Of a stretch of DNA of 64,000 bases, positions 29,377 through 50,034 are shown piece after piece; within the stretch, counting starts at the first letter, position 1, and every line of letters begins with the position of its first letter. The notes under the pieces are model-generated. The model was given only the letters and a program-made list of their open reading frames with translations, was not told the origin of the DNA and did no database searches. A program made the position numbers and the translations under genes. Origin of the DNA: Defluviitaleaceae bacterium. Lineage in GTDB: Bacteria > Bacillota > Clostridia > Lachnospirales > WQUN01. Location: the NCBI GenBank assembly GCA_009786925.1, contig WRGY01000127.1, positions 1-64,000 on the forward strand. The letters are read 5' to 3'.

Positions 29377-29437
29377 TTTCGACGATTTAGCTCATTAATC
29401 ATTGAGTCTCAAATGTCTGATTAGGCGGGTAAAAATT

Positions 29438-31936
29438 ATGGAAAAGTCACAATACAAACAGATACAGGAATCATTAAATGCAATAGAAAAAGCACAGTCC
29501 TCAAAGATTTACGGTGACTGTCAAGAGAAGGCTCTGTCACTGTGCGATTTTATTGACAAAATAAAAAACAGCGAGACAAAAACTGTTTCCATGCTAGTAG
29601 AATATTGTGAGCTTTTGTTTAAAGTCAACAATGGTGAACTAAAAGAAAAAGTACTAATCGAGAAGCTAGCAAAGATTTCAAACATGGTACGCGCAGAATT
29701 AAAGTCCGACATACTTGAGGTCGTCTTTTTGCCATATCGTGCCGCCATGTTTGATGCACTCGAATCCGTATATTTTGCCGCTTCTGCAGATCCATTTTGC
29801 AATGCATATGTTATCCCCATCCCATATTATGAAATAAATCGAGACAAAACCCTCGGCGTATCTCACTACGACGGAAAAATATACCCGCCAAATATCACCA
29901 TCACCCACTGGGAAGACTATGATATACCTACACGCCGCCCGGATATTATTTTTACACATGTTCCCTATGATGACTTTGGCAATAACTTTACTATCCACCC
30001 CAACTATTACCATAAGAATCTCAGGCAGTTTTGTGATAAGGTTGTTTATATACCTTATTATGTACACGGTGAAAGTTCCTCAGGGTCAAACGCAGGCTTT
30101 GCGACTACTCCCGGTCCTATCCATGCTCACCACACAATCTTAGAAAATGAAAACATAAGGCAGTTTTATATTAGTGTTTATAAAGAGCTGGGAAAAGACC
30201 AAGGCAAACATGCCGCTGATTATTTAGGAAACCTGGATAAAAAATTCTTGGCTCTTGGCTCACCTAAATATGACAAAATAATCAACTTGCAACCGGAGGA
30301 CTGCAATCTACCGGAAGCATGGAAAAAATTGATATATAAACCTAACGCCACACGTAAAAAAGTAATCCTATACAATACACACTGGTCCCCCTTTGTGAAC
30401 AACTCCGCAAGATATTTTAAAAAAGTGCTTAATGTTTTTGCGGATTTTCAAAAAAGGGATGATGTCGTGTTATGGTGGCGGCCTCACCCCAACTGCGAAA
30501 AAAACTTTAGGACATTTAGACCGGAAAATTTGAATGCTTATCTGGAGTTGGTTAGCACTTACAAAAAAGAGGCATGGGGTATATATGACGATACTCCGGA
30601 TTTGCATAGAGCAATAGCTTGTACTGATGCTTATTATGGTAGCTCCGAGTCTTCGCTTACAGCGATGTATAACGCAGCAGCAAAGCCATTCCTGATTGAA
30701 AACATTGAACTCTTACCAACAAAACGAAACGTCATTCCTGTAAATATATGTGATACAAAAGAACATCTTGTTTTTTCGGCATACACAATTAACTCTTTAT
30801 TTTGCATAAACAAGTCGGATGGCAAGGTCAAGAGTTTGGGTGACTTCCCACATGAGCCAGCAGTACAGCTGTTTCAGTATGGGCAATCCGCATCTGTCGG
30901 TGATGTTATTTATTTTGCCCCACTTTCTGCACAAGACATTGCAAGCTACTCTTTGACTGATTTATCGTTTAACAAAATATCATATAATCGCAGCGGCAAC
31001 CCCGGCATATCCAACCGTGCGTTTTATGGTGTTGTGGTTTATGACAAATATGTTTATTTTACTCCATGGAACCATCCCTCCATAATGAGGCTAAATACAG
31101 AGACTAATGAAATCACGTATTTTGATGACTGGATAAAACCCATTGAAAAATTTAAACATATAGATGACGACTTGCAATTCCTTGACCCAATAATAGTTGG
31201 CGAGACAATGTACCTTGCATATGCGCGGGGCAATGCTGTTTTGGCACTCGATATTAACACATTAAAGTTTACGGTATACGAAGTAGGTCAAAAAGGATAC
31301 AGGTATTCAAATATCTGCTATGACGGCGACAGTTATTGGCTAATCCCAAGAATGTGCGACACACCATTGATAAAATGGCATCCTCAAAAAGGCATATTAA
31401 ATGAAATCAACAGCATCCATGAAAAAAATGAGCCAACGCACAAGTACTCCATGTGTACCGCCGCTTTTTGTAATGGCTATTTATGGTTGTTGCCTATTGG
31501 TGCAAGACATGCATATAAAGTTGATGTGACTACCAACGAAGTTCATGTTTTGGATGATTTTGCAAGTGATTGTAATGAAATACACGCAGACTCTCCGCTC
31601 CCAAAATTTAATTACATGAAGAGTGTAGGCGACAGCCTCTATATAACTAAAGTCCGCAATGGAGAGCCGACACTCATACAATACGACACCAAAAATTTAA
31701 AAAAGCATGTGCTTTTGTTACAGACATCCGCAGAAGATAACATTAAAATCGAAAAATTAATCTCTCGGGCAATTGCAAGTGAAAATGCACATCAAGTTTA
31801 TTTTTATGAGTCCGGCTCTATATTTTTAGCTGATTTTATTTCAGGTGTTGTAGATGCCGATACAAGCAAACGAACAAACCCTAATTTTGATGGCAACGCC
31901 GGGGCAAACATTTATGAATACTTTAGAAGGAAATGA
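29438..31936 (+). CDS. CDP-glycerol glycerophosphotransferase-like protein fused to a putative beta-propeller
   Basis: About 832 residues from ATG 29438; an earlier in-frame ATG (29402) has no ribosome site. Residues about 75-430 resemble the TagB/TagF-type CDP-glycerol glycerophosphotransferase fold: RRPDIIFTHVPYDD, VVYIPYYVHG, KFLALGSPKYDKI, VVLWWRPHPNCE and DTPDLHRAIACTDAYYGSSES. Residues about 440-790 hold repeated beta-rich units with a conserved pattern (VGDVIYFAP, YDKYVYFTP, VGETMYLAY, DGDSYWLIP, CNGYLWLLP) spaced 45-60 residues apart, as expected for a propeller. It probably transfers a polyol-phosphate or phosphonate-type group to a glycan at the inner membrane face; the substrate is inferred from the PEP mutase and LicD genes that follow. 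Confidence 0.75.
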   Translation: MEKSQYKQIQESLNAIEKAQSSKIYGDCQEKALSLCDFIDKIKNSETKTVSMLVEYCELLFKVNNGELKEKVLIEKLAKISNMVRAELKSDILEVVFLPYRAAMFDALESVYFAASADPFCNAYVIPIPYYEINRDKTLGVSHYDGKIYPPNITITHWEDYDIPTRRPDIIFTHVPYDDFGNNFTIHPNYYHKNLRQFCDKVVYIPYYVHGESSSGSNAGFATTPGPIHAHHTILENENIRQFYISVYKELGKDQGKHAADYLGNLDKKFLALGSPKYDKIINLQPEDCNLPEAWKKLIYKPNATRKKVILYNTHWSPFVNNSARYFKKVLNVFADFQKRDDVVLWWRPHPNCEKNFRTFRPENLNAYLELVSTYKKEAWGIYDDTPDLHRAIACTDAYYGSSESSLTAMYNAAAKPFLIENIELLPTKRNVIPVNICDTKEHLVFSAYTINSLFCINKSDGKVKSLGDFPHEPAVQLFQYGQSASVGDVIYFAPLSAQDIASYSLTDLSFNKISYNRSGNPGISNRAFYGVVVYDKYVYFTPWNHPSIMRLNTETNEITYFDDWIKPIEKFKHIDDDLQFLDPIIVGETMYLAYARGNAVLALDINTLKFTVYEVGQKGYRYSNICYDGDSYWLIPRMCDTPLIKWHPQKGILNEINSIHEKNEPTHKYSMCTAAFCNGYLWLLPIGARHAYKVDVTTNEVHVLDDFASDCNEIHADSPLPKFNYMKSVGDSLYITKVRNGEPTLIQYDTKNLKKHVLLLQTSAEDNIKIEKLISRAIASENAHQVYFYESGSIFLADFISGVVDADTSKRTNPNFDGNAGANIYEYFRRK

Positions 31937-31942
31937 TGCTTA

Positions 31943-33517
31943 ATGACTAAGAGAGAAAAATTTCGCAAACTGCTTAATCACAATAAACATTTTTTTTTGA
32001 TGGAGGCTCATGACGGCCTCTCGTCTAAAATCGTGGAGGAAACGGGGTTTTCTGCGATATGGGCGAGCGGGTTGTCTATCACTGCGTCGCTAGGTGTGCG
32101 TGATAATAACGAAATCTCATACACACAGTTATTGGATGTCCTTGAATATATGAATGACGCAACAAGCTTACCTATTTTAGTCGATGGCGATACAGGCTAT
32201 GGTAATTTTAACAACGCTTCTGTTCTTTTGCGAAAACTGGAAGAGAGAGGCATTGCGGCCGTATGCATTGAAGACAAAAAATTCCCAAAAACAAACTCAT
32301 TTTTAGAGGATAGCATGGATGCATTAGCCGACCCTTTAGAGTTTGCAGGAAAAATAAGAGCAATGAAAGCGGCACAAAGCTCCCCTGATTTTACTGTAGT
32401 AGCAAGATTAGAGTCTTTTAATGTTGGGGCAGGGCTTGATGATGCAATAAAACGGGCGCGTATTTATGTAGAAGCCGGTGCAGATGCACTGCTTGTGCAT
32501 TCTAAACGTTCGGACTCAAAGGATATTGATGATTTCCTTTCAAGTTTTGATATGGACGTACCCATTTTCTTGGTACCCACAAAGTATTACACCGTCCCCG
32601 TAAACCACCTCACAAAAGACATACGTGTACGAGGTATAATCTGGGCTAACCAAAGTGTACGCGCATGTGTAAGTGCAATGCAATCCATTTGCAAGCAAAT
32701 TTTTAACGAAGGCTCTATCGCCAACGCAGAGGAATCAATTGCTTCGGTCTCTGAAATATTCAGGCTCCAAAGGCATGACGAATATGTTGAAATGGAGAAA
32801 AAATACCTCCCACCCGGTACCCCCTCTTCCGCCATTATCTTAGCGGCAGGCTCACCCGGAAAATTTGGAATAGAAAAGCCTAAAGCACTAATTTCGATAA
32901 ATGGACAAAGCCTACTGGAACATCAAATCACAGCATTGACATCTGTTGGCATTGCTAACAAAACCATTGTGCGAGGTTATAAAAAAGAACATATCTCTAT
33001 GCAAGGATACTCTTACGTTGATAACGACAAATGGCAGACTACCGATGCCATGTATTCACTTTCACTCGCATCTAAGGGCATAGTCGAGCCATATCTGGTG
33101 CTATACAGCGATGTGTTTTTTAAACGCTACTTGTTGCATAATTTAATTTTGTTCTCTAATCAAACAGATGCGGATATTATATTAGTGTGCGTGAAAGAAA
33201 ATTATATATTTAGCGGCTCTTTGGTGGTGGACAACTCGCCGGACTATCTTGGAAACAATGACACTGCATTAATCACCGGGGTTTCGGACAGTAGTTATGG
33301 CGACACCGAAAAAACCGTATACTTTAGTGGCTTGATGATGGTGAAAAATCACGAAGGTATAAATAATCTCTTGGAGTGTAAAGACATTGATACATTATCA
33401 TCAAGGATGCTGTTTTCTCGCGCACTAGAGTACGGAATGAAAATTGCTGCAATAATAGCCTCTACAGATGCCATAGTTGACATAAACACCGTTCAGGACT
33501 TGATGAAGGTGAGGTAG
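31943..33517 (+). CDS. Phosphoenolpyruvate mutase fused to a nucleotidyltransferase
   Basis: 524 residues. Residues 1-285 are a PEP phosphomutase: DGDTGYGNF at 81-89 and the signature EDKKFPKTNS at 110-119 distinguish it from isocitrate lyase relatives. It makes the C-P bond, phosphonopyruvate from PEP. Residues about 295-524 are an NTP-transferase domain (AIILAAGSPGKFGIEKPKAL; VLYSDVFF with the metal Asp), the type that in PntC-like proteins couples CTP to 2-aminoethylphosphonate. The usual Arg of the GxGxR loop is missing (GSPGKF), so activity of this half is uncertain. The decarboxylase gene follows after 2 bases. Confidence 0.92.
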   Translation: MTKREKFRKLLNHNKHFFLMEAHDGLSSKIVEETGFSAIWASGLSITASLGVRDNNEISYTQLLDVLEYMNDATSLPILVDGDTGYGNFNNASVLLRKLEERGIAAVCIEDKKFPKTNSFLEDSMDALADPLEFAGKIRAMKAAQSSPDFTVVARLESFNVGAGLDDAIKRARIYVEAGADALLVHSKRSDSKDIDDFLSSFDMDVPIFLVPTKYYTVPVNHLTKDIRVRGIIWANQSVRACVSAMQSICKQIFNEGSIANAEESIASVSEIFRLQRHDEYVEMEKKYLPPGTPSSAIILAAGSPGKFGIEKPKALISINGQSLLEHQITALTSVGIANKTIVRGYKKEHISMQGYSYVDNDKWQTTDAMYSLSLASKGIVEPYLVLYSDVFFKRYLLHNLILFSNQTDADIILVCVKENYIFSGSLVVDNSPDYLGNNDTALITGVSDSSYGDTEKTVYFSGLMMVKNHEGINNLLECKDIDTLSSRMLFSRALEYGMKIAAIIASTDAIVDINTVQDLMKVR

Positions 33518-33519
33518 CC

Positions 33520-34593
33520 ATGATAAATACCGACGATTTTTTAGAACATTTATTAAATAACGGTATTGAAAAAATTGCAGGTGTGCCATGCTCATTTCTT
33601 AGTTCTTTAATAAATCGTGCAACTGATAGAGGTATGTATGTGCCATTTACCAACGAGGGAGATGCAACTGCATATGCTGCCGGTTATGCCCTTACAGGTA
33701 AAAAATGTGCAGTAATCATGCAAAACTCCGGATTATCCAATGCATTATCGCCCTTGTCATCATTAAACAAACTTTTTGGGCTAAATACTTTGTTGATTAT
33801 AGGAAATCGTGGCGTGGATGACGAACCTCAGCATAAGATAATGGCAGGAGCAGTAAAGCCTTTTTTAGATGCATTAAAAATACCTTATTACGATGCTGAA
33901 AACGGCGATAAATCTCTGCTTAATACATTTGAGGCGATTTCTAAAAACTCCGTAGCTATCCTTGTTAATCAAAAAGATACTTTTTCGTCTGCAAAAAGAG
34001 ATGTGATTTTTTACCCGGAAAAGCCTTTAAGGCATAATATACTCGAAGCTATCGCGGGATGTGCCAAGGATAAAGATGTCGCAATACTCACCACAACAGG
34101 GTTTACAAGCCGAGAAATGTATTCCATAAAGGACAGAGCATTTAATTTTTACATGGTTGGGTCGATGGGTTGCCTCTCGTCCCTCGCTATGGGTGTAGCT
34201 GAGTCGATGCCGGGCAAAAAGGTTATTGCAATAGATGGTGACAGCGCATGTCTTATGAGACTTGGTGCTCTATACACACTTACTGCACATGCCCCTGACA
34301 ACCTGTGTTATATAGTATTGGATAATGACGGAAACGAATCCACCGGGAACCAACCCAATTCTATATGCGAGAGTAGATTATTTAATGTGATGTCAGCGTT
34401 ACATGAGACAAAAAAAACAGAGTCCCCCGAAGCAGTTGCAAATGAGGTTTCGGCTTTTTTCAGGCTCGGTAAGTATACACAGATATACAACCCGATACGT
34501 ATGGGAAGCATAGATAACTTGCCAAGGCCTGACAGGGAATTGATTTTTAACCAAGCCAATCGCTTCACATCCCATATTACACAACACTCATGA
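33520..34593 (+). CDS. Phosphonopyruvate decarboxylase
   Basis: 357 residues. A ThDP-dependent enzyme that drives phosphonate synthesis by converting phosphonopyruvate to phosphonoacetaldehyde. Family motifs: GVPCSFLSSLINRA at about 20-33, FTNEGDATAYAAGYALTG with the catalytic Glu, and the ThDP site GDSACLMRLGAL...LDNDGNESTGNQP, where the usual GDGS reads GDSA. ATG 33520 begins 2 bases after the mutase stop. Its stop overlaps the phosphoesterase start as ATGA. No phosphonoacetaldehyde aminotransferase of the AepZ type follows. Confidence 0.92.
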   Translation: MINTDDFLEHLLNNGIEKIAGVPCSFLSSLINRATDRGMYVPFTNEGDATAYAAGYALTGKKCAVIMQNSGLSNALSPLSSLNKLFGLNTLLIIGNRGVDDEPQHKIMAGAVKPFLDALKIPYYDAENGDKSLLNTFEAISKNSVAILVNQKDTFSSAKRDVIFYPEKPLRHNILEAIAGCAKDKDVAILTTTGFTSREMYSIKDRAFNFYMVGSMGCLSSLAMGVAESMPGKKVIAIDGDSACLMRLGALYTLTAHAPDNLCYIVLDNDGNESTGNQPNSICESRLFNVMSALHETKKTESPEAVANEVSAFFRLGKYTQIYNPIRMGSIDNLPRPDRELIFNQANRFTSHITQHS

Positions 34594-35285
34594 AGATTGC
34601 GGTGATGGCAGACATCCATGCAAATATACACGCACTCAATGCTGTTTTGCATGATTGTGAAAAAGAATGTGTTGAAAAGTTTTGGTTGCTCGGTGATTAT
34701 GTAGACTATGGCGCGGCTACTATCCCCGTGTTAAATAAATTAAAGTCCCTCCGCGCAGAACATGCTTTGGCAGGCAATCACGATGCCTGTTTGTTTTCGG
34801 TTCATATACGCCCAAGCCAAACGCCACATGGATATGCGTCATACCAACATACAAAAATGCAGTATGAAAAAAATGCAGACTCCTTTAGTTGGCTTAAAGA
34901 CCTTTTGCCGTCTCAGATTGCTCAAGGTGGCAATACACTGCTTGTACATGGAACACCCAATGACCCTTATTGGGGCAAATTTTTACCAACTGACACATCA
35001 ACTTTACAAGAAATAATTTCATACATGGAGATAAACAATCACGAGTATTTATTTATGGGGCATTCTCACATCAGCTTTATGCTTACTCTCGATGGGAGAA
35101 GGATAATAAACCCCGGTAGTGTAGGACAACCCAGAAACGGCTACCCAAATGCACAGTACTTAATTTTTGATGACGGCGAAATTATCTTTAAAAATATATG
35201 TTACGATATAAATGCTGCGGCATCTGAAATAGAAGCCGCCGGATTGCCTGAATATTTATCAAAAAGGCTTTTTATAGGAAAGTAG
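34590..35285 (+). CDS. Calcineurin-like metallophosphoesterase (YfcE/MJ0936 type)
   Basis: 231 residues. The two-metal phosphoesterase motifs are complete: DIHANIHALNAVL, GDYVDYG, GNHDA, LVHGTPND and GHSHIS. It starts inside the decarboxylase stop (ATGA), so it is part of the phosphonate unit. Close relatives hydrolyse small phosphodiesters. Here it might trim a nucleotide-linked intermediate, but the substrate is unknown. Confidence 0.85.
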   Translation: MKIAVMADIHANIHALNAVLHDCEKECVEKFWLLGDYVDYGAATIPVLNKLKSLRAEHALAGNHDACLFSVHIRPSQTPHGYASYQHTKMQYEKNADSFSWLKDLLPSQIAQGGNTLLVHGTPNDPYWGKFLPTDTSTLQEIISYMEINNHEYLFMGHSHISFMLTLDGRRIINPGSVGQPRNGYPNAQYLIFDDGEIIFKNICYDINAAASEIEAAGLPEYLSKRLFIGK

Positions 35286-35295
35286 AGCTGATAAA

Positions 35296-36255
35296 ATGCG
35301 TGTTTTAATTACAGGTGCAGCAGGGCTTACAGGTGCGCATCTCGTGAGAGAGTGCTTAAACTCAGGAGATACAGTGGTCGGTATTGATAATTTTTTCCGA
35401 GGAAAATATGAAAACATTAAAGACGTAATTGGCCATGACAGATTCGAATTTTTTGAATGTGATTTTATTGATTATATCAAAGACCCTTGCTCCGATACTG
35501 CATTCGACGGTATATACCACTTAGCGGCAATAGTACCGACAAAATATTTTTATGAAGAGCCTGAGCTAACATATGAGGTTAACTGTCGTGGAACCCATGA
35601 TATATTTAAGTGGGCTGTCAAACATGGTATTAAACGTTTTGTAAATGCATCTTCTTCCGAGATATATGGCCATGCTCCCGATTTCCCCACAAAAGAGACA
35701 ACCCGCTCTGTGTACGACTCTGTCGAAGACTCTACTCGTTGGTCATATGCACATGGCAAAATTTTGACAGAATATTTGCTAAACCATTACAGTAGCCAAA
35801 TTGATGTATGTCATTTGCGTTACGCTAATGTGTACGGCCCTTATGACGATGATGACCATCACGTTATCCCTTATATGATAAATTGCATAGCAAATAGTAT
35901 CCCCATTAATTTGTCCAAAAATTATAAAGAAGCCCGCCGCTCATTTTTGTACATGAGTGATTGCGCCATCGCTACACGACTTGCAATGACGCATATGAGA
36001 ACAGGCACAAGCTACAATATCGGAAACCCGGAAGAAACAACTATAGAAAATCTATGGAACATTTGCTTAAAGGCCATGCAGGATTTGGGGATTTATTACA
36101 ATCAACCGCTTACCTGCAATATGGAGCGTGCAGGCGACCCGACTCGCCGTGTCTTAGACATAAATCGTGCCCGTGACCATCTGGGTTACATTCCGGTCGT
36201 TATGCTCGAAGAGGGCATAGCAAAAACAGCAAAATGGATAGTAGGGCGTGCATAA
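35296..36255 (+). CDS. NAD-dependent epimerase/dehydratase (extended SDR)
   Basis: 319 residues. The Rossmann motif GAAGLTGAHL, acidic GIDNFFRGK, and catalytic SYAHGK (Y-x-x-x-K) with NASSSEIYG upstream mark an extended SDR acting on a nucleotide sugar, for instance a 4-epimerase or 4,6-dehydratase. It sits between phosphonate genes and a nucleotidyltransferase whose ATG follows its stop directly. Confidence 0.88.
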   Translation: MRVLITGAAGLTGAHLVRECLNSGDTVVGIDNFFRGKYENIKDVIGHDRFEFFECDFIDYIKDPCSDTAFDGIYHLAAIVPTKYFYEEPELTYEVNCRGTHDIFKWAVKHGIKRFVNASSSEIYGHAPDFPTKETTRSVYDSVEDSTRWSYAHGKILTEYLLNHYSSQIDVCHLRYANVYGPYDDDDHHVIPYMINCIANSIPINLSKNYKEARRSFLYMSDCAIATRLAMTHMRTGTSYNIGNPEETTIENLWNICLKAMQDLGIYYNQPLTCNMERAGDPTRRVLDINRARDHLGYIPVVMLEEGIAKTAKWIVGRA

Positions 36256-37032
36256 ATGGGAAAGGCGGCAGTAATATTATGTGCCGGTGTAGGAAGCAGA
36301 ATGGGACTGCCTCCTGACATAAACAAATGTGCCGCTGCTTTTGGCGGATACAGTGCGGTTGGCCATACATTGTCATCCCTTTTATATGCAGGTGTCAGCA
36401 ATTTTTATATAGTGGTAGGCCATGCAGAGGACTCTGTCCGAAATGCGTTATCAAATTATATCGGAAAGATTGACATAAAGTTTTGCATTAACAGTAGCTA
36501 TGATTTTCATGGTTGCAATTATTCGCTTGCATGTGGAGTAATGGCGGTGGATGACAACTGCACAGGACTGATAGTAGCCGAAGGGGACTCTCTATTACAC
36601 CCTGACTCATTCAAACAACTTGCCGAAGTAAAACAAAATGCGGCTTCACTAATACGCTCACCCGAGTATATTAATCCAAAACGTAGCGTTGTTGCCGCAG
36701 GTAAAAATAAAATCATAGAAAAATACCTGTATGACCAAAGCCATACAGGCATACTGCCTGCCCTTGACGACGAGGAGAGTATACTGGGTGAAAGTATGCA
36801 ATTATGGTATTTTTCTGGAGAGCCATTAAAAAAACTAATTCGCAACTTGAATGAATATAAAAATCTCGCCAATAACAGCGAGATGCCAATGACAGAGTCC
36901 GGGGTTTACACAATTAACAATATTGAATTTCCGATTACTCCGGTGATGTCAAAACACCCTGATGACTGGTTAAACCTTAATACAAAAAAAGACATGGAAA
37001 GCGCGAGTGAGTTAAGATGGCTACAAAAATAA
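36256..37032 (+). CDS. MobA/GlmU-type nucleotidyltransferase
   Basis: 258 residues. The N-terminal loop AVILCAGVGSRMG is the intact G-x-G-x-R nucleotide-binding motif, unlike the degenerate one in the PEP mutase fusion. VAEGDSLLHPDSF carries the metal-binding Asp. LicC, PntC and sugar-1-phosphate nucleotidylyltransferases share this fold. In this position it is the best candidate for activating the phosphonate (or choline-like group) as a CMP derivative for LicD. It overlaps the next gene by 16 bases. Confidence 0.82.
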   Translation: MGKAAVILCAGVGSRMGLPPDINKCAAAFGGYSAVGHTLSSLLYAGVSNFYIVVGHAEDSVRNALSNYIGKIDIKFCINSSYDFHGCNYSLACGVMAVDDNCTGLIVAEGDSLLHPDSFKQLAEVKQNAASLIRSPEYINPKRSVVAAGKNKIIEKYLYDQSHTGILPALDDEESILGESMQLWYFSGEPLKKLIRNLNEYKNLANNSEMPMTESGVYTINNIEFPITPVMSKHPDDWLNLNTKKDMESASELRWLQK

Positions 37033-38123
37033 TGATTATAGGCTTTGGGAGTACGGGCAAATATGTGCTGGACATGGCAACTAAAATGAATGTTTTTAAG
37101 GACTGCACATTCATCGTAGTTTCCAGGACATCCGAAGAAGAGGTCGAAAAAAGAATTAATATAACTCGTATATCTTCCGGCATTTTTGACTATTTTCCAC
37201 GCATCAGCTATCATGAATGTGATATTAACAACTTGGTACAAATGAGTGAATTACTTTCTAACGAGGCACCCGACATAATTGCTTATACAGGCAGATACAT
37301 GAAGGGTTTTAAATATGGTGAGTTTTCGTATCCAAATGAAATAGGCTATGGTGCCTGGACTCCGATGGCAGTTGTCTTGGTAGAAAAACTCATGAAAGCT
37401 GTAAAACAGTCAGGTATTTCTACTCGCGTAATAAACACGAGTTTTGGCGATGCAGTTTCTCCTGCTTTAGCTACAGTCGGACTTGCACCATATACCAGCG
37501 CAGGCAATCTCAATCATCTAATCCCACGAATAAAAATGGCATATGCAAATATAACAAACGAAAACTATGATGATATAGATGCAACCTTTGTAGGTGCTCA
37601 TTATGCTAACACATATATCTCTAAAGAGGGGATTCCAAAAGGCTCACCTTACCTCCTAAACATATCCGGCAAATTAAAAAAGACCGTATCTGACGACGAA
37701 ATATTTAAACATTGTGCGATACCTACCATATCCGGAGCAGAACGAAACTGGATGATAGCATCTGATGTGGTGATGCTTTTACGTTTGATGACAGATAAAA
37801 GCAGGGCAAAATTAAAAACACATGCACCCGGTCCGTTTGGTCTACCGGGGGGCTATCCGCTTTTATTCGAAAACGGAGAAATGCATGTTGATGAAATCCA
37901 TTTTTCTATAGATGATATGAAAAAGGTAAATCACGGCAGTTTAGCTTGTGATGGTATAGAGGATATTAACGCAAACGGAATCGTATTTACTGATGATGTT
38001 ATATATAAAATGAAAAAGGTGTTTGGCGTAGATTATCCCAAATCCATATCTGTAAACGATTGTGAGATGTTTTCTGTTAAAATTGCCGATACATTAAAGG
38101 GCGCAGGGAGAGTCTCTAAGTGA
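37017..38123 (+). CDS. Rossmann-fold protein of unknown function in the phosphonate unit
   Basis: 368 residues. The first 40 residues are a dinucleotide-binding fold (KIMIIGFGSTGKYVLDMAT), resembling saccharopine-dehydrogenase-like or opine-dehydrogenase-like proteins. The remainder has a conserved-looking segment, PGPFGLPGGYPLLF, near residue 270. Residues 85-150 contain TGRYMKGF and NTSFGDAVSPAL. I do not recognise the exact family. It overlaps the nucleotidyltransferase (16 bases) and licD (4 bases), so a linked role is likely, such as reducing phosphonoacetaldehyde or modifying the phosphonate; that is inference. Confidence 0.6.
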   Translation: MATKIMIIGFGSTGKYVLDMATKMNVFKDCTFIVVSRTSEEEVEKRINITRISSGIFDYFPRISYHECDINNLVQMSELLSNEAPDIIAYTGRYMKGFKYGEFSYPNEIGYGAWTPMAVVLVEKLMKAVKQSGISTRVINTSFGDAVSPALATVGLAPYTSAGNLNHLIPRIKMAYANITNENYDDIDATFVGAHYANTYISKEGIPKGSPYLLNISGKLKKTVSDDEIFKHCAIPTISGAERNWMIASDVVMLLRLMTDKSRAKLKTHAPGPFGLPGGYPLLFENGEMHVDEIHFSIDDMKKVNHGSLACDGIEDINANGIVFTDDVIYKMKKVFGVDYPKSISVNDCEMFSVKIADTLKGAGRVSK

Positions 38124-39076
38124 AAAAGCAACCAAGAGAAATAGTCATCTCCGGCGAAGATTTGCGAAAACTGCAAATGATAGAACTGGATATACTAAAA
38201 GAAGTAGACAGAGTTTGTCGCAAGCACGATATTAATTATTTTTTGATATACGGCACATTGCTTGGTGCAGTGAGGCATAAGGGATTTATCCCCTGGGACG
38301 ACGACTTGGATATTGGTTTTTTGCGCAAAGACTACGAAAAATTTTGCAAAATATTCCAACATGAGGCAGATACATGTAAATACTTTATACAAACATGGAA
38401 AACCGATAAGCATTATTATTGGAACTATGGAAAAATAAGGAGACTGGATACAGAATATATACGCCTGGGTCAAGAACATATGAAATATGTGACAGGTATC
38501 TATATTGATATATTTCCATTTGATTATCTCCCACTTAGCAATAAAGCCAGCGATGATATAATCAAATATTATAATGATAACGTTAAACAAGGAAGCAGCA
38601 CAGACAACTTGCTCCAGAGGGACAAGTGCTTTATCTCACAAAAGCAAATGAAGCCTACTATCATGCAGTCGCGCATATGTAAGCTTTTTAGAAAAGGTGC
38701 ATGGTCTCATACCGGTAAATATCACGAAAAAAAATTTTGGTTGCGCATTCTGTATCATCTTATGTCATTAATACCGGGTAGGGTTTATGCTTCCATGCTG
38801 GAACACTGGTCTACTAAGTACAACAATGATACAAGATATGCAAAAAAACATTTGCACTCTTTTGGGTATGCCGACGCTCACCATGATGACCCCAGAGTCG
38901 ATTTTTCGTCAGATATTTTTGAGGAATATATAGATATTGAGTTTGAAGGTTTTTATTTTAAGACGATAAAAGAATGGCATAAATTTTTAACTATACACTA
39001 TGGCAATTATATGGAGCCACCACCTATAGAAAAAAGATGCGGTGTTGCACCCGCATCAAAAATCGATTTTGGATGA
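38120..39076 (+). CDS. LicD-family phosphotransferase, copy 1
   Basis: 318 residues from GTG 38120, overlapping the previous stop. LicD motifs: IELDILKEVDRVCRKHDI, YFLIYGTLLGAVRHKGFIPWDDDLDIG with the catalytic Asp residues, and a C-terminal IEFEGFYFKTIKEWHKFL-x-x-HYG segment. Family members move phosphocholine or similar groups from a CMP donor to surface sugars. With PEP mutase and two nucleotidyltransferases upstream and no choline uptake or kinase genes, the likely donor here is a CMP-phosphonate. Confidence 0.9.
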   Translation: MKKQPREIVISGEDLRKLQMIELDILKEVDRVCRKHDINYFLIYGTLLGAVRHKGFIPWDDDLDIGFLRKDYEKFCKIFQHEADTCKYFIQTWKTDKHYYWNYGKIRRLDTEYIRLGQEHMKYVTGIYIDIFPFDYLPLSNKASDDIIKYYNDNVKQGSSTDNLLQRDKCFISQKQMKPTIMQSRICKLFRKGAWSHTGKYHEKKFWLRILYHLMSLIPGRVYASMLEHWSTKYNNDTRYAKKHLHSFGYADAHHDDPRVDFSSDIFEEYIDIEFEGFYFKTIKEWHKFLTIHYGNYMEPPPIEKRCGVAPASKIDFG

Positions 39077-39116
39077 CATAAATTTATTACCATAATGCAC
39101 TGGAGGTAATCTTATA

Positions 39117-40166
39117 ATGCGTAACTTATCAGTCGTTCCTATTTCAAATGCAATGGATTCCGTGATTGATGGAAACTCTTCTATCGCAGACAGGATATTT
39201 CACTTGCCGTGTGGAGGGATAGAGCAAAAGGGAGTCGATTCACTAGATGGTCTGCTTTTTGTAGTTAATGAGACCAGTCAATTAATCGGCACTTTAACGG
39301 CATCTGATTTTCACCAGTTAGACAACGTGTTATCCGTAAACATGAAAGTAAAAAACATCATGAATAAAAATTTTAAGTTTGTGACATCTGAAAACAGCGA
39401 AAGCCAAGCTGTTTCTATTTTTGATGCCCATAGTGGAATACATGCAGTCCCGGTTGTTGATGAAGAGGGAAGGATGGTTTCTGTTATTTGCAAAGCCAGT
39501 GATTACAAATTTACTGTGCCTTTTTCAAATGCAGACATAGAATCTGTGTTTGCCGGATATAAACTGTTAAACACATGGCATCACAGGGGATATTTGCGCA
39601 ACTGGGGAGCCACATTGCCGGCCAGACGATTTGTGTTGGAAAGTATAATAAACAAGTGCGATGTTAATAGCAAAATACTGGATGTCGCTTGTGGCACAGG
39701 ACTTATGAGTTTTTACTTAGCGGCAGCAGGATTTACAAATCTTTATGGTTTTGATATTGACGAAAATTTAATAAACGCAGGAAAAAATTTATCAGATATA
39801 AAAGGATATAACGTTGATTTTCAGATAGATGACGCATTTTTACCATCATGTGATATTTCGTCATTTGATGTTGTTATCATGTTGGGGTGGGTTTTTGCTA
39901 ACTTCGATGGTAAGAACACACCAATTGATGAAGTTGCAAACAGCTTGTTTTCAACTTCGTACAAAATAAAGACAGGAGCTTATGTTTTTCTTGATTTATA
40001 CGATGATTTATCCAACTTTAACGTATACAAAGAAGCCGCACATTTTCCAACCGTTAAATACGAAGATTTAAAACCTGTTTTTGAGAAACATGGATTTAAA
40101 CTAGTGGACAAATGCTACGATTGTAGTACAGATGTTAAAGTTATATATCTTTTGAAAAAAACTTAA
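39117..40166 (+). CDS. CBS-domain pair fused to a SAM methyltransferase
   Basis: 349 residues, ATG 39117, behind CTGGAGG. Residues about 10-140 form two CBS repeats (VDSLDGLLFVVNETSQLIGTL; GIHAVPVVDEEGRMVSVIC). Residues about 180-345 are a class I methyltransferase: ILDVACGTGLMSFYLA (motif I), FDIDENLI, DVVIMLGWVFANF. CBS pairs bind adenosine-type ligands, including SAM, and usually regulate transporters or IMP dehydrogenase, or guide sugar nucleotidyltransferases in glycan loci. A fusion to a methyltransferase is unusual. The acceptor is presumably a sugar or phosphonate in this pathway. Confidence 0.75.
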   Translation: MRNLSVVPISNAMDSVIDGNSSIADRIFHLPCGGIEQKGVDSLDGLLFVVNETSQLIGTLTASDFHQLDNVLSVNMKVKNIMNKNFKFVTSENSESQAVSIFDAHSGIHAVPVVDEEGRMVSVICKASDYKFTVPFSNADIESVFAGYKLLNTWHHRGYLRNWGATLPARRFVLESIINKCDVNSKILDVACGTGLMSFYLAAAGFTNLYGFDIDENLINAGKNLSDIKGYNVDFQIDDAFLPSCDISSFDVVIMLGWVFANFDGKNTPIDEVANSLFSTSYKIKTGAYVFLDLYDDLSNFNVYKEAAHFPTVKYEDLKPVFEKHGFKLVDKCYDCSTDVKVIYLLKKT

Positions 40167-40194
40167 AATCTTTTATCTCACTGGAGGATGCAAA

Positions 40195-41364
40195 ATGGCA
40201 GATGTTAAAGCTCACAGCTTTTTGCCTCAAATCGCAGATGATGTTTCAAACATAATTTCAAATTTTCCTGAAAAAAAAATAATATGGTTTGGATATGATT
40301 ACACTCATTGGGTAGACGTTTTGCAAGCGGCACTTATAGAAAGAGGACAATGCCTCGACTACATCATTGATAACGATAAGGTAAAATGGGGTCGCTCATC
40401 TTGCAAGGGTACAATTGTGTCTCCACCAAAATATGTTTTAGATTTGCATAAAAACGATTCTGTTTTGATTGTTATGTCAAATCATAAGGAAGCGATAATT
40501 GAAGGTGTTAAAAAATATGGCTACCCACAGGAGCAAATAGTGGTCATGAAAACACCTTACGAATACACCGAAAAAGCCGAAGAAATATTTTATGACAGCA
40601 TTAAAAACCTTAAACAGATGAATTTAAGAGATTTTCAGCTATGTGGACTTGAAATATTAAAGGAACTAAAATACTTTTGTGATAAACACAAGCTAAAATA
40701 TTATTTATCCGGTGGCACATGCTATGGTGCAGCTCATTATAAGGGATTTATACCCTGGGATGACGATATTGATATTGATATGCCATATGATGATTTTATG
40801 TATTTAATCGAAAATTTTCCCAAGGGCGGAAGATACGAAATAATATTTTGGAAAACACATCCCGACTTTTATTATCCCTTTGCCCAAGTAGTCGACAATG
40901 CTACTATCACAGTCTATGGCAGCAACCCGATAAGCCTGTTGCAAGGTGCCTTTATTGACATTTTCCCTTTAACCGGAGCCCCTACATGTGCAGAGGAGTT
41001 TAAGTTTTTAAAGGAATACACATGCTACTTGGATTCCCAATGGAGATGGTACTACAACGCTAAAGGCGTACTAAACGAAACAATACCTGACATGAGACAA
41101 AACATATGGGATAAAAAATTTTTTATTAATTTTAATGATGCTAAAATGATTACTCAGCCGGTAGAAGGTGGGGGCGGTAATGAACTCTGGTGGATACCAA
41201 GCAGTGCATATGAATATGGCAATACTCTTGAATTTGAGGGCGAAAGGTTTTCTGCCATGATGGACTGGAACGCACTTGTACTTTCTCGATACCCTAACTG
41301 GAGACCATTGACAGAAAAGGAACAGTTGCTTTATGCACATCCGATAAAGGCATTTTGGAAATAA
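40195..41364 (+). CDS. Rossmann module plus LicD-family phosphotransferase, copy 2
   Basis: 389 residues, behind CTGGAGG. Residues about 25-120 form a Rossmann-like unit (KKIIWFGYDYTHW, IIDNDKVKWG, DSVLIVMSNHKEAI) shared with several proteins of this locus. Residues about 140-385 are LicD: YYLSGGTCYGAAHYKGFIPWDDDIDIDMPYDDF and the C-terminal LEFEGERFSAMMDWNALV. A second LicD suggests that two acceptor positions or two groups are transferred. Confidence 0.85.
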   Translation: MADVKAHSFLPQIADDVSNIISNFPEKKIIWFGYDYTHWVDVLQAALIERGQCLDYIIDNDKVKWGRSSCKGTIVSPPKYVLDLHKNDSVLIVMSNHKEAIIEGVKKYGYPQEQIVVMKTPYEYTEKAEEIFYDSIKNLKQMNLRDFQLCGLEILKELKYFCDKHKLKYYLSGGTCYGAAHYKGFIPWDDDIDIDMPYDDFMYLIENFPKGGRYEIIFWKTHPDFYYPFAQVVDNATITVYGSNPISLLQGAFIDIFPLTGAPTCAEEFKFLKEYTCYLDSQWRWYYNAKGVLNETIPDMRQNIWDKKFFINFNDAKMITQPVEGGGGNELWWIPSSAYEYGNTLEFEGERFSAMMDWNALVLSRYPNWRPLTEKEQLLYAHPIKAFWK

Positions 41365-41385
41365 TTAATTAGGGGTTTGATAAAT

Positions 41386-42948
41386 ATGGCCAAGCTTAAT
41401 CACTGTAGCTTTGACGATTTCGTTAGCAGGCTTAACACTAAAAAACTCGCCTGTTTTGGCGCAGGTGTAAATCTGGGCGAGTTTATTAGCCAATATCAAG
41501 ATTATGGAATCAAGGATAAAATCAACTGTATAATTGACAATTACAAAGGACGTTCAGACAACGAACTATATGACAAATCTATACCGATTATTTCTCTCAA
41601 AAAATTTATAAATAAACATAAAAACGAATATGTAATTGTAATAACAAGCTACCAATACGTTGATGATATTTTTGACCAGATTAATGGGTATAAAAGTCTC
41701 AATGATATTGATTGCTATTTTTACAAACTGTTTGAGCTGGATTCCGACATTGATATAAATAATAAAGACATCACGGATGTGATAAACCAAAATACAAATG
41801 CATCAATGTCTGGCAATAAAAGTGTCATTAAAATGGCTTACATTGCTAATTTCAAAAAAATGGATATATATTATTCAGGTGTTATAAAAAAGATTGACAA
41901 CCAAATTTCTGCATTTAGCAAGTCGAGCATAAATGTCCTAAAATGTAGCGCGAAAAAACATCCATTGAACTCCTTGAACAGGAAAATCGGGTTTTTACCT
42001 TTTTGCTCTCAATGGAATTATACACAACTAATAGATAACTATGGCAACTACGACACATACTACATCAGATTTTTCTTTAACATTGACCGGCCATTTATTG
42101 CTTTTTGTAAAGAACTAAAAAAAATCAACCCTGCGGTAAAAATTATTTTGGAAATACCAACATACCCCTACGATGGAGAAAACGCTTTCAAGACTGTGAG
42201 CGATGCCTTAAAAGATAAAATTAATAGAAAAAGGCTATATAAATATGTAGACCGACTTGTAGTATTTACCGACCAAAAGGATATTTGGGGCATAAAAACT
42301 ATCAATATTATCAATGGTGTAGATGTAGAAGGAACAAGAAAAAGGGTTGTGCATTTTGATAATGCTAAAATTTCAATAATTGCTGTTGCTAATTTTGAAT
42401 TTTGGCATGGATATGATAGATTTATATGTGGATTGGGAGAATATTATAAACATGGTGGAAAAAGAAATATAATACTTCATCTGGTCGGCCCCGGAACACC
42501 AAATGTTAAAAAACTATATGACGATATTATCGACCGATATAACCTAAAAAATCATGTCATCATGCACGGAAAAAAAACCCACAACGACCTAGATGATGTG
42601 TATGACAAATGTAGTATTGCATTGGGGTCTTTAGGATTGCATAGGGTTGATAAGGATTTGAATACCAGCACTTTAAAAACAGGTGAATATACTGCAAAAG
42701 GACTGCCGGTGATGTCCTCCGGAAGAGTAGATATGTACGATAGAGATTATCCGTACTTTTTAAAATTAGTGGCAGATGAAACTCCGATTGATATAAATCA
42801 GGTGATAACTTTTTATGACAAAATTTATCACAGTGATGAGACTTATACCATAATAAACGACGAAATAAGGCAACTTGCAATGAAAACATGCGACATTTCT
42901 ATCACGATGGAGCCTGTTATCGACTATATTAAAGGGGAGCGAGCTTAG
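41386..42948 (+). CDS. Rossmann module plus GT4-type glycosyltransferase
   Basis: 520 residues from ATG 41386, with AGGGG upstream; an in-frame TTG 9 bases earlier is less likely. Residues about 15-115 are the Rossmann-like unit (KLACFGAGVNLGEFI, INCIIDNYKG). Residues about 145-515 are a GT-B glycosyltransferase: IIAVANFEFWHGYDRFICGL starts the C-terminal half, LHLVGPGTP follows, and KTGEYTAKGLPVMSS holds the nucleotide-binding Glu. Its stop adjoins the start of the next gene. Confidence 0.8.
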   Translation: MAKLNHCSFDDFVSRLNTKKLACFGAGVNLGEFISQYQDYGIKDKINCIIDNYKGRSDNELYDKSIPIISLKKFINKHKNEYVIVITSYQYVDDIFDQINGYKSLNDIDCYFYKLFELDSDIDINNKDITDVINQNTNASMSGNKSVIKMAYIANFKKMDIYYSGVIKKIDNQISAFSKSSINVLKCSAKKHPLNSLNRKIGFLPFCSQWNYTQLIDNYGNYDTYYIRFFFNIDRPFIAFCKELKKINPAVKIILEIPTYPYDGENAFKTVSDALKDKINRKRLYKYVDRLVVFTDQKDIWGIKTINIINGVDVEGTRKRVVHFDNAKISIIAVANFEFWHGYDRFICGLGEYYKHGGKRNIILHLVGPGTPNVKKLYDDIIDRYNLKNHVIMHGKKTHNDLDDVYDKCSIALGSLGLHRVDKDLNTSTLKTGEYTAKGLPVMSSGRVDMYDRDYPYFLKLVADETPIDINQVITFYDKIYHSDETYTIINDEIRQLAMKTCDISITMEPVIDYIKGERA

Positions 42949-44220
42949 ATGCGTTATTATATTTTCGGCGCAGGCTTGTTTGGTATAAATTGCTATCACT
43001 TACTTAAACAAGACTATGATATTATTGCTTTTATTGATAACGATAAACACAAAATCGGGACAAGCATCATAGACAATAAAAGAGTTATTTCTGTTGACGA
43101 GCTGGCTCATTTAAAAGAAGAATATTTTGTTTTTATAACCGGAACATACGCACACGAAATGAGCAACCAATTAGAAGAAATGGGGATTACAAATTATTCG
43201 TTCTATCCATGCTATGAGTATATGCACGGTTATGAAAATAAGGAATTAGGACAAAGGCTGGACAAAGGCTGTAGAGTATTATTTAAAAAGATAAAATCAT
43301 TAAATCCCGATACCCTAAACATCTCTGACTATAATAAAAAATATCTGCGTAGCAAGGGCTGGGCGCAAATTTTTGTATATGCCCGCATACTTTATACCGT
43401 ACTAATGGAAAACCCAAACCCCGACACGATTTTGGATTATGGAGGAGGTACAGGGCTACTTTCTTTACTGGCATTGGAGCTTGGTATTCCGAACGTGTAT
43501 TACAATGATATTTATGAAGTATCTGTGGACGATGCACGCGAAATTGCGACTGCTTGCGGCTATACCAGAGCGGGATATGTCGCGGGTGATATTGATAAGG
43601 TAATTGATTATTGCAGTAAACATAAAACAACTTTTGATGTTGTTGCATCTTATGATGTCCTAGAGCATATCTACGATTTGCGTACATTTTTTAATGACTT
43701 AAAAAAGACGCTGTCCCGCGATTTTGTTGTGTGCATGAAGACAGGAGCAAATACTTACAACAAAGAAATATATGATAATCTTGCTATTGGCCATTTGAAA
43801 ATAGACAGCCTTAGCCGAAATCATGAGTATGGGCATAAGGAAAGAGATAGCCTTAACGCCTTCTTTGATATACGTTTACACATAATACATTGCCATATCA
43901 ATGAGAATAATCTTTCAATTAACGAGATTGAGGCCATTGGCCTTGCATATACCACCAGGGGGTATATAAAAGAGGATATTTGCAATTGCGTAGAACTGTA
44001 TGCAAAAACAGGTAAAGTCGACCCCCGTGATTTTATTGGAGCGTTCGAGTTTAACACATGTGACCCACTGACAGGCAACTGGCAAGAGCATATTATTGAT
44101 TACGAAAAATTGACAAAAACATGTGAATCTTTAGGCTACAACACCAAGATATTGTTTGATGTAGATAAGAGTACCTCCATGACATTGCAACTTGTGTTAG
44201 CAAATAAGATGATTTTTTAA
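42949..44220 (+). CDS. Rossmann module plus SAM methyltransferase
   Basis: 423 residues. Residues 1-90 are the Rossmann-like unit (YYIFGAGLFGINCYHLL, IIAFIDNDKHKIG, EEYFVFITGTYAHEM). Residues about 140-330 are a class I methyltransferase with DTILDYGGGTGLLSLLALE (motif I) and VVASYDVLEHIYDLRTFF. The last 90 residues are not recognised. ATG 42949 directly follows the preceding stop. The acceptor is unknown. Confidence 0.78.
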   Translation: MRYYIFGAGLFGINCYHLLKQDYDIIAFIDNDKHKIGTSIIDNKRVISVDELAHLKEEYFVFITGTYAHEMSNQLEEMGITNYSFYPCYEYMHGYENKELGQRLDKGCRVLFKKIKSLNPDTLNISDYNKKYLRSKGWAQIFVYARILYTVLMENPNPDTILDYGGGTGLLSLLALELGIPNVYYNDIYEVSVDDAREIATACGYTRAGYVAGDIDKVIDYCSKHKTTFDVVASYDVLEHIYDLRTFFNDLKKTLSRDFVVCMKTGANTYNKEIYDNLAIGHLKIDSLSRNHEYGHKERDSLNAFFDIRLHIIHCHINENNLSINEIEAIGLAYTTRGYIKEDICNCVELYAKTGKVDPRDFIGAFEFNTCDPLTGNWQEHIIDYEKLTKTCESLGYNTKILFDVDKSTSMTLQLVLANKMIF

Positions 44221-44272
44221 ATGCTGAATTATCTATACATGAATTTATTTTGGGTTATAGGGGGACATTGAT

Positions 44273-45511
44273 ATGCAAACTGCATATATATTTGGCACAG
44301 GACAAATATCAAATCTTGCTTATGAACAATGCAAGGAAAAATATAAAATCCTAGGCTTTATAGACAATGATAATACTAAACACGGAAAAACACACCATGG
44401 ATTACTAATAGAGCCACCATCAAAAAAGCTTGATTGCGTTGATGCAATTATAATAGGGAGTGCCGACGCAAATAAAGATGAGATGGAAATCCAGTTAGTA
44501 AATGATTTTGGCATCCCACCGGACCGTTTGATTGCTCCTATCCCGTCGCAACCTCTGGATTCATATACGTCTAAAAATCCTCCGGGATTATCTATAAGCT
44601 TAGGCTCTGACAAGTGTATAAACCGTTGCATTATTTGCCCTCAGCATTTGGGCGGAATTAATACGCAATTTTTATCACCTGATGTTTTAAAAAAGGTAGT
44701 GTCAGAAATACCAGAAGAGGAGTTTAACGTTACTTTAACCGGTTTTCTTGAACCCTTTCTTGCCCCTAATATAGTAGAATGCGCAAGAACAATAAAACAA
44801 ATAAAGCCTAAGGCTAAAATAATGGTTAATACCGCCGGCTTAATTTATGATGAAGATTTTTTAGTGCAACTTTTTCCATATTTAAGCGTACTTAAAGTAA
44901 GTTTAAATACAATGACATCTGATGATTATGCATTTTTATCCGGTACAGGCAATGAGGGCAACTTTCACAAAGTAATGGATAATATTTTAAAATTCCAAAA
45001 TTTGTCTATACAAAAATATCCTAACTTAAAAATAACTTTACAAATGATGAAATTTAAAAAATATAAGTACAAAGATTTAACACATTTTTTGGCACCCTTT
45101 AGGCAAAAGGGTGTAGCTGTGCATTATTGTGACGTTTACAATTGGGGAGGGGGGAACAACGACAGGAAGAAAATAACATCCGAGCTGCATAACCGGGAAC
45201 TATTGCCTATGTTGCGGACTCCTCAAGGTGAACAATACCCCTGCCTTGCCTTATTTACATCTATACATTTGTTTGAAGATGGATACTACTATCCCTGCCC
45301 TCCTTCTATGAAACATGGGCAAGATGGCCGTGATTTTCCGATAGGTAATGCACTCACTATGTCTTTCTCCGAGGCATATCATGTTCTGCAAACGTATCAA
45401 CAGATGCATTTGCAAAACGAATTTAACTGCCTTGACTGTGCCACCTGCAATGGCTGGACTATTCATAATAAAAATATTTTTGAAAATCACAAAAAGGGGT
45501 GCGCGTGTTGA
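44273..45511 (+). CDS. Rossmann module plus radical SAM enzyme
   Basis: 412 residues. Residues 1-95 are the Rossmann-like unit (AYIFGTGQISNLAYEQC, ILGFIDNDNTKHG). Residues about 100-330 are a radical SAM barrel with the cluster motif CINRCIIC (C-x3-C-x2-C). A Cys-rich C-terminal region (YYYPCPP, CLDCATCNGW, CAC end) could bind a second Fe-S cluster, as in SPASM/twitch proteins. There is no cobalamin domain. Substrate unknown; a carbohydrate or phosphonate step is likely from context. It overlaps the next radical SAM gene. Confidence 0.82.
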   Translation: MQTAYIFGTGQISNLAYEQCKEKYKILGFIDNDNTKHGKTHHGLLIEPPSKKLDCVDAIIIGSADANKDEMEIQLVNDFGIPPDRLIAPIPSQPLDSYTSKNPPGLSISLGSDKCINRCIICPQHLGGINTQFLSPDVLKKVVSEIPEEEFNVTLTGFLEPFLAPNIVECARTIKQIKPKAKIMVNTAGLIYDEDFLVQLFPYLSVLKVSLNTMTSDDYAFLSGTGNEGNFHKVMDNILKFQNLSIQKYPNLKITLQMMKFKKYKYKDLTHFLAPFRQKGVAVHYCDVYNWGGGNNDRKKITSELHNRELLPMLRTPQGEQYPCLALFTSIHLFEDGYYYPCPPSMKHGQDGRDFPIGNALTMSFSEAYHVLQTYQQMHLQNEFNCLDCATCNGWTIHNKNIFENHKKGCAC

Positions 45512-46761: not shown

Positions 46762-46783
46762 ACCCATGGAAGGACAAGCATAG

Positions 46784-47671
46784 ATGACTTTTCCCGGAGA
46801 GCAAGATGTGAAAAACTATTTAAAACTGGACTCAACATTACCCGCCTCTTTTGACCCAAACAAAACAGATATGGCATACTATATCAAAAGATATAACACC
46901 AAACTCGAATATTATATAAACCGGATAGACAATCTTATGCTTTCGGGAGACAAAATTTTAGACGCAGGGTGTGGCTCGGGTGCTTGGTCTATTGCGTTGT
47001 CACAGCGTTATAAAAGTGTGGTAGCGCGGGATTTGAGCCAAGACGGTTTAGATGTATTTAATGCAGTAAAATCGCTAATGGGTATTAATAATATACAAAC
47101 TGACAGAGGCGACTTAGAAAAATTGCCATACGATGACAACTCTTTTGATGATATATTTTGTTATAGCGTAATCATGTACTGCAATGTCCCGGATGTCTTA
47201 TCGGAGTTTTTTCGAGTGCTAAAGCCCAGTGGACGAGTGTATCTATGCCTAAACAATGATGGCTACTATCATTACTTGATTAACGAGCGTGGTAAAAGAG
47301 AAAAAGACCAAGAAGAATACGGCAAAAAGACTTTATATAACACTTACATTAAGCGGTTTATGCAAAATCAAGACATCGAAATCAAAGCAAACATATCACA
47401 ATACTGTGGTAGACAATGGCTTGCTACGCTGGATGAAGATTTGAAACTGCATAGTAAAAATGAGCCTATCTCCGTTTCCGGTTATGACACACGCGCCTAC
47501 TCTTTTGCAGAGATGGAAGACCTTGCTGTACACGCGGGTTTTACAGACTTTAAAGCTCAGACAGAGGGAATGCTAATCACAAATGAGCAGGGTATTAAGC
47601 TGGAGCCTTTGTATCATGGTTATTACAATGACACTGTGACCGTTTGGGAATGCTTATTTAAGAAATCATAA
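46784..47671 (+). CDS. SAM-dependent methyltransferase (UbiE/COQ5 type)
   Basis: 295 residues. Class I methyltransferase with ILDAGCGSGAWSIALSQ (motif I), GDLEKLPYDDNSFDDIFCYSVIMY and VLKPSGRVYL. No extra module. ATG 46784 follows a weak GGAAGGAC site. Acceptor unknown, presumably the glycan or its nucleotide-linked precursor. Confidence 0.85.
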   Translation: MTFPGEQDVKNYLKLDSTLPASFDPNKTDMAYYIKRYNTKLEYYINRIDNLMLSGDKILDAGCGSGAWSIALSQRYKSVVARDLSQDGLDVFNAVKSLMGINNIQTDRGDLEKLPYDDNSFDDIFCYSVIMYCNVPDVLSEFFRVLKPSGRVYLCLNNDGYYHYLINERGKREKDQEEYGKKTLYNTYIKRFMQNQDIEIKANISQYCGRQWLATLDEDLKLHSKNEPISVSGYDTRAYSFAEMEDLAVHAGFTDFKAQTEGMLITNEQGIKLEPLYHGYYNDTVTVWECLFKKS

Positions 47672-47688
47672 TAAATCGAGGTGTACAA

Positions 47689-49395: not shown

Positions 49396-49415
49396 ATTTT
49401 ATAGGAGATGGCGTG

Positions 49416-50033: not shown

Positions 50034-50034
50034 G

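Follow-up and report, generated by a model that had tools for sequence, protein, structure and literature searches.

A conserved phosphonate-tailoring variant that includes an orphan oxidoreductase family and recurs, unexpectedly, in a phage

Results

A six-gene set within a surface-glycan run

We examined a stretch of 64,000 nucleotides (hereafter the window) from a Defluviitaleaceae bacterium, positions 1 to 64,000 of contig WRGY01000127.1. Window genes between 29402 and 60354 form a single same-strand run, the first eight of them nearly gapless in the open reading frame (ORF) table. Our subject is a set of six genes in this run, encoding a phosphoenolpyruvate (PEP) mutase (PepM), a phosphonopyruvate decarboxylase (Ppd), a metallophosphoesterase (MPE), a short-chain dehydrogenase/reductase (SDR), a nucleotidyltransferase (NTase) and an orphan oxidoreductase named 37017 after its start position. 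The host is a gut-type bacterium; the six-gene set recurs in further gut bacteria and in a single Vibrio virus. Because eight genes of the run are syntenic in other genomes at 32-68% identity, the run is far beyond chance. The genes at its head are as follows.

29402..31936, + strand: large orphan protein (832-844 amino acids), candidate GT-B-like transferase heading the run (synteny, weak model)
31943..33517, + strand: PEP mutase (residues 1-290) fused to a LicC/PntC-like nucleotidyltransferase domain (~296-524) (TIGR02320, PF12804)
33520..34593, + strand: phosphonopyruvate decarboxylase (Ppd), a diverged thiamine pyrophosphate (TPP) enzyme (TIGR03297 best match, TPP domains)
34590..35285, + strand: YfcE-like MPE, cassette member (metal motifs, synteny)
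35296..36255, + strand: extended SDR, with UDP-glucuronate decarboxylases as closest solved relatives (PDB search, S-x-S-E and Y-x3-K)
36256..37032, + strand: stand-alone LicC/PntC-like nucleotidyltransferase, NTP_transf_3 / DUF6564 (conserved GxGSR...K)
37017..38123, + strand: 37017, orphan oxidoreductase of 368 amino acids with a lactate/malate-dehydrogenase fold (structure model, hhalign)
38120..39076, + strand: LicD family phosphotransferase (PF04991, 133 bits, full profile)

A first-pass annotation of the interval 29438-41364 had described this region as a phosphonate-glycan module. The genes at 34590, 35296 and 37017, which are central here, lie within that interval and were left undiscussed.

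The MPE-SDR-NTase-37017 order is conserved in 13 loci

Scanning reference genomes with the PepM protein, together with profile searches using 37017, yielded 12 loci beyond the window. In all 13 loci the order MPE-SDR-NTase-37017 is the same and each has PepM in the run; L028 begins inside the SDR gene, and in L007 a homologue of the 29402 protein is inserted before 37017. The loci divide by their PEP mutase: type 1 (the window, L006 from the cultured species Clostridium porci, L009, L012 and L017) carries a C-terminal PF12804 domain, and type 2 (L027-L030 and L112-L114) an N-terminal PF01467 domain, as tested for L029. In L007 a PepM of type 1 goes with an MPE-SDR-NTase-37017-Ppd set of type 2, so that the cassette does not depend on which fusion its PepM carries. 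In L029, L030, L112 and L113 the six genes make up a complete operon.

Of 344 genomes of the order, 35 have PepM, and an unbiased profile search placed 37017 homologues in 5, each of them one of these 35 (hypergeometric 8e-6, ignoring relatedness). Across 398 genomes of the phylum, the matches were the window's own protein and one very distant protein. Relatedness among the genomes and the shortness of some contigs mean that these co-occurrence figures overstate independence. Frame breaks interrupt Ppd, MPE, SDR and LicD in L012 (11590-17600) and reflect either decay or sequencing errors.

The cassette lacks an adjoining transaminase or iron alcohol dehydrogenase

The first-pass annotation held that the enzyme following Ppd was missing. 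Profile searches and tblastn indeed found neither a 2-aminoethylphosphonate (AEP) transaminase (AEPT) nor an iron-dependent alcohol dehydrogenase (Fe-ADH) in the window; the slot, however, is filled in 13 loci by the MPE-SDR-NTase-37017 set. Neither enzyme adjoins the cassette at any of these loci (0/13), whereas 20 of the 29 other PepM loci extracted have AEPT or Fe-ADH adjoining PepM (Fisher 2e-5, a value that likewise disregards relatedness).

The host's own genome, ~90% complete, has no AEPT (TIGR03301/PhnW) above the cut-off, the best match reaching 37 bits vs 360.8, and its weakly matching ORFs read like cysteine desulfurase and SerC. All of its matches to the Fe-ADH family lie off the contig: an AdhE-type fusion, a 392-aa Fe-ADH and a 343-aa protein resembling 3-dehydroquinate synthase. 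Likewise, AEPT was above the cut-off in none of the 13 cassette genomes; the control, L010, in which AEPT stands beside PepM, scored 407 bits. G295 has one sub-cut-off AEPT match.

A Ppd homologue is present in all 13 genomes with 37017, the L012 copy being broken by stops. Since Ppd lies elsewhere in both genomes concerned, we rejected the idea that its absence at L017 and L114 means no decarboxylation takes place. The L017 contig also holds a second PepM cluster (L115 with L116), with an Fe-ADH/ATP-grasp fusion and Ppd, ~15-25 kb from the cassette.

A copy of all six genes in Vibrio phage Va2

Searching 50,697 phage records with the 37017 protein gave Vibrio phage Va2 (MW073017.1; L096, L119, L121) as the sole match (29%, E 5e-34). 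Within the Va2 segment from 80.9 to 122.5 kb every one of the six cassette genes has a homologue; no other single observation argues as strongly that they form one unit. The E values are against the cassette proteins.

80916: NTase/DUF6564 homologue (E 4e-23)
86429: 37017 homologue (E 7e-53)
104837: Ppd homologue (E 2e-39)
109638: phosphoenolpyruvate mutase (record annotation)
111676: SDR homologue, annotated 'metallophosphatase' (E 2e-55)
121782: MPE homologue (E 3e-46)

The six are scattered across ~41 kb, partly among nucleotide-metabolism and replication genes. The Va2 PepM has a motif one residue longer (EDKNPSAKINS) and a C-terminal extension; that this extension shares the C-terminal NTase domain was unsupported (hhalign 0.1%). 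The Va2 37017 homologue falls inside the Firmicute clade (support 0.999), apart from the rhizobial, cyanobacterial and other homologues. Searches with the Va2 PepM and NTase revealed no other phage carrying either gene in a form of comparable length, and scans of viral contigs gave no match to 37017, to DUF6564 or to the Va2 proteins. An apparent PepM in Acinetobacter phage MD-2021a (L120) was discarded: the gene is prpB in a prpBC/lactate island, and the record is probably bacterial DNA. PepM/Ppd clusters also occur in L122 and L123, human faecal scaffolds labelled 'Bacteriophage sp.' (unverified); L122 has AEPT as well, and both are probably bacterial fragments.

37017 has a lactate/malate-dehydrogenase fold

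By sequence, 37017 matched nothing significant in the PDB, and we therefore turned to a fold search. The protein has no Ldh_1 match at E 0.001, and a PF00056 search of its own genome was likewise empty. An AlphaFold model, built from 6 sequences (pLDDT 82.5), has the lactate/malate-dehydrogenase (LDH/MDH) fold over the whole chain (Foldseek E 6e-10). VIA-align against LDH/MDH structures gave Z 20-22 and a root-mean-square deviation of 3.4-4.1 over ~280 residues at ~12% identity, and hhalign against LDH proteins gave 93.6%. On the strength of this model we assign 37017 to the LDH/MDH fold. His195 is invariant in 15 of 15 homologues and aligns at the region of the LDH catalytic His, and an Arg in place of Asp at the end of the second strand would favour NADP(H) as the cofactor.

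Direct, MDH-like reduction of phosphonopyruvate by 37017 was considered and is less likely given the presence of Ppd in 13/13 genomes, though outside the cassette in two loci. On rhizobial plasmids (L092, L093, L094), distant 37017 homologues stand opposite an alanine racemase gene, together with a haloacid dehalogenase (HAD) hydrolase and in some cases a drug/metabolite transporter (DMT); this setting looks like a catabolic island without PepM.

The remaining cassette enzymes

The PEP mutase and decarboxylase named in the first-pass annotation were both borne out. The product of 31943-33517 scores 329.5 bits against TIGR02320, above the curated cut-off of 319.55, and its motif EDKKFPKTNS (residues 110-119) has the form EDKxxxxxNS. 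For 33520-34593, TIGR03297 is the best family at 245.8 bits, below the equivalog cut-off of 312.5, and the protein is therefore called a diverged member of the phosphonopyruvate/sulfopyruvate type; both TPP domains score above their cut-offs. A comparable sub-cut-off TIGR03297 member is found in the AEPT-positive L010 genome.

Two nucleotidyltransferase domains had also been predicted, and PF12804 is indeed found twice: in the PepM-fused domain of 31943-33517 (NTP_transf_3, 46.5 bits) and in 36256-37032, which matches DUF6564 too. LicC is the best PDB match of both. The two are not equivalent: judged by their sequences, the stand-alone protein keeps the catalytic Arg and Lys and the fused domain is without the Arg. 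Tde-PntC with this Arg changed to Ala retains activity below 10% (PMC6697681). In 36256 the motif reads GVGSR...NK, with R15 and K24 invariant in 10/10 sequences and the P of PK replaced by N; an acidic residue (AEGD) lies near the PntC Glu104 position, as judged by eye. The fused domain keeps the PK lysine, lacks the consensus Arg in 7/7 sequences and so departs from the GxG(T/S)R...PK motif.

The nearest PDB relatives of the SDR are UDP-glucuronate decarboxylases (E 1e-40), and its active-site S, E, Y and K (S-x-S-E, Y-x3-K) are invariant. Every metal-binding motif is present in the MPE (DxH, GDxxD, GNHD, HGT, GHSH).

LicD proteins, the 29402 protein and the rest of the run

Both LicD proteins of the first-pass annotation were recovered with PF04991 (cut-off 22.6): 38120 reaches 133 bits over the full length, and 40195 reaches 99.5 bits over the first half of the profile. 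The label of CDP-glycerol glycerophosphotransferase given to 29402/29438-31936 did not hold, as no Pfam, NCBIfam or PDB sequence family matched this protein, the Glyphos_transf family included. Its weak model (pLDDT 68) meets GT-B-like epimerases at TM ~0.35 and at most hints at a possible GT-B-like fold. Homologues of 29402 adjoin PepM in L006, L009, L012, L017, L082 and L083. The run continues beyond the first LicD gene.

39117..40166, + strand: fusion of tandem CBS domains and an S-adenosylmethionine (SAM) methyltransferase, outside the conserved cassette (domain search, synteny)
40195..41364, + strand: further LicD-family protein, extended at its N terminus (matches positions 1-110 of the LicD profile only)
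41377..60354, + strand: rest of the surface-glycan run, comprising glycosyltransferases, methyltransferases, two SPASM/radical-SAM-type proteins, FkbH-like, two DegT, WbmS-like and a UDP-sugar dehydrogenase (domain search)

The two DegT aminotransferases are at 54341 and 59227. Promoter and terminator counts are as expected by chance, and an Rfam scan returned the tRNA only. Just 5' of the run, at 27874-29281, are two adjacent look-alike genes whose products, by eye, resemble proteins with a ParB-like nuclease domain. After the run, at 60316-63974 on the opposite strand, lie two long neighbouring paralogues, the first with a GT2 domain.

Discussion

A proposed pathway and its rivals

The gene set is a real and conserved variant of phosphonate tailoring; it brings with it an orphan oxidoreductase family and, unexpectedly, has a copy in a phage. 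No description of it appeared in the literature searched, which comprised open-licence papers. We think it fairly probable that PepM to 37017 form one conserved phosphonate-tailoring module with a product other than AEP. Gene content, synteny, co-occurrence and folds were observed directly, and from them we infer the following chemistry. By family assignment, PepM would convert PEP to phosphonopyruvate and Ppd would convert this to phosphonoacetaldehyde. MPE, SDR, NTase and 37017 would then convert phosphonoacetaldehyde in place of the customary AEP transaminase or Fe-ADH. The most likely substrate of 37017 and/or the SDR is this aldehyde or a CMP-linked derivative of it, the presumed reaction being reduction of the aldehyde. 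Family knowledge suggests that 36256 forms a CMP-phosphonate, and the SDR may act on the nucleotide-linked form. The MPE may release or proofread, by cleaving the CMP-phosphonate or a by-product. Finally LicD, perhaps with the 29402 protein, would move the activated phosphonate onto a surface glycan. The product is probably not AEP; it may be 2-hydroxyethylphosphonate (HEP) or a new phosphonate. A more specific and tentative proposal, which we put at somewhat below even chances, is that the phosphonate made by the six genes differs from both AEP and HEP and arises via a nucleotide-linked intermediate handled by the SDR and 37017; in gut Firmicutes it would decorate surface glycans, and in the Vibrio phage it would serve a different purpose, possibly modification of DNA or the particle.

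Several observations weigh against a tailoring module of this kind. In the L017 genome (G1001), the contig that carries the cassette also bears another PepM cluster, this one with Fe-ADH and with the only Ppd of the genome. Asp168, the LDH residue that binds 2-oxo acids, is not clearly conserved in 37017, so that its substrate is not readable from residues. Rhizobia and cyanobacteria hold distant relatives of 37017 in non-phosphonate settings, so the wider family is not phosphonate-specific. Moreover, the SDR and NTase could instead produce a sugar donor.

The dehydrogenase fold of 37017 would also suit a HEP pathway in which 37017 stands in for an Fe-ADH of the FomC/PhpC type, and CMP-HEP is made and attached, with SDR and MPE serving the adjacent glycan. 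In different loci the place beside PepM and Ppd is held either by Fe-ADH or by the 37017 set, and type-2 PepM shares its N-terminal PF01467 fusion with Fom1, the CMP-HEP enzyme (PMC6697681). Such fusions, however, occur with AEPT too, G1001 retains the Fe-ADH cluster and the 37017 set together, and the inseparability of SDR, second NTase and MPE from 37017, phage Va2 included, would go unexplained; we consider a HEP pathway of this form unlikely. Ordinary AEP tailoring would call for an unrecognised aminotransferase elsewhere or for one of the DegT proteins that the window holds (54341 or 59227), with 36256 acting as PntC and with SDR and 37017 making another sugar. The conserved R and K of 36256 and its acidic residue near the PntC Glu104 position agree with a PntC role. 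Yet none of the 13 cassette genomes has an AEPT-family transaminase above the cut-off, several type-2 cassettes are without an adjoining DegT and the stretches of Va2 that were read show no annotated transaminase, which makes ordinary AEP tailoring improbable. The relationship of the SDR to UDP-glucuronate decarboxylases raises another explanation, namely that MPE-SDR-NTase-37017 does not make the phosphonate but its carrier, a nucleotide-activated sugar or polyol. Extended SDRs are mostly nucleotide-sugar enzymes, and pairs of NTase and reductase are generally known to give CDP-polyols. The strict tie to PepM over two PepM fusion types and a phage speaks against this, as do the L029 and L030 operons, which consist of the six genes only and have neighbours that are differently oriented or, on one side, unrelated. 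We give such a sugar or polyol role very little credence.

Significance

Known bacterial phosphonate tailoring is dominated by two fates of phosphonoacetaldehyde: transamination to AEP and Fe-ADH reduction to HEP. The conserved gene set described here would be a third route that takes the place of both, and it points to 37017 as a new enzyme family. The cassette also supplies context for the uncharacterised Pfam family DUF6564 and marks gut bacteria and a phage in which to look for a C-P compound not yet listed. With its self-contained operons the pathway comes down to six genes, suited to joint expression in E. coli.

Comparison with known systems

The majority of PEP mutases carry a fused nucleotidyltransferase domain (PF12804 in a third), and LicD-like transferases are often near (Rice 2019, PMC6697681). 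Several clusters have one fused and one separate nucleotidyltransferase, the separate PntC making CMP-AEP, and the clusters studied there make AEP via a transaminase (PMC6697681). C-P bond formation, CMP activation and LicD together are thus already published logic, and the new part is the gap-filling gene set. The first-pass annotation had proposed that a surface polymer is decorated with a phosphonate through a CMP intermediate; the genes fit the published Pnt logic (PMC6697681).

Like the Pnt pathway with PntC in Treponema denticola and Atopobium rimae (PMC6697681), the locus has PepM, Ppd, a fused and a separate LicC/PntC-like NTase and LicD/glycan genes nearby. Unlike that pathway, it is without AEP transaminase, and MPE, SDR, 37017 and the DUF6564-type NTase are conserved instead. 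With the HEP branch and the early steps of fosfomycin synthesis (Fom1, Fom2, FomC) it shares a PepM-cytidylyltransferase fusion, Ppd, a candidate NAD(P)-type oxidoreductase and the logic of a CMP tag, and by analogy the MPE might play a FomD-like part. It differs in having no Fe-ADH at the locus, in the LDH/MDH fold of 37017 and in an SDR and second NTase that have no counterpart there. The PEP mutase within a surface-polysaccharide locus recalls the capsular polysaccharide of Bacteroides fragilis (PMC6697681), whose polymer carries AEP; here, by contrast, the AEP-making enzyme is missing. LicD family transferases and a LicC-like NTase are likewise features of the LicD/CDP-choline (Lic) pathway, whereas no choline genes are found among the genes examined and the donor would be a CMP-phosphonate. 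Finally, 37017 resembles the lactate/malate dehydrogenase superfamily in its long structural alignment and in a His at the catalytic position, and departs from it in its low identity, the absence of a Pfam Ldh_1 match and an Asp168 that is not clearly kept.

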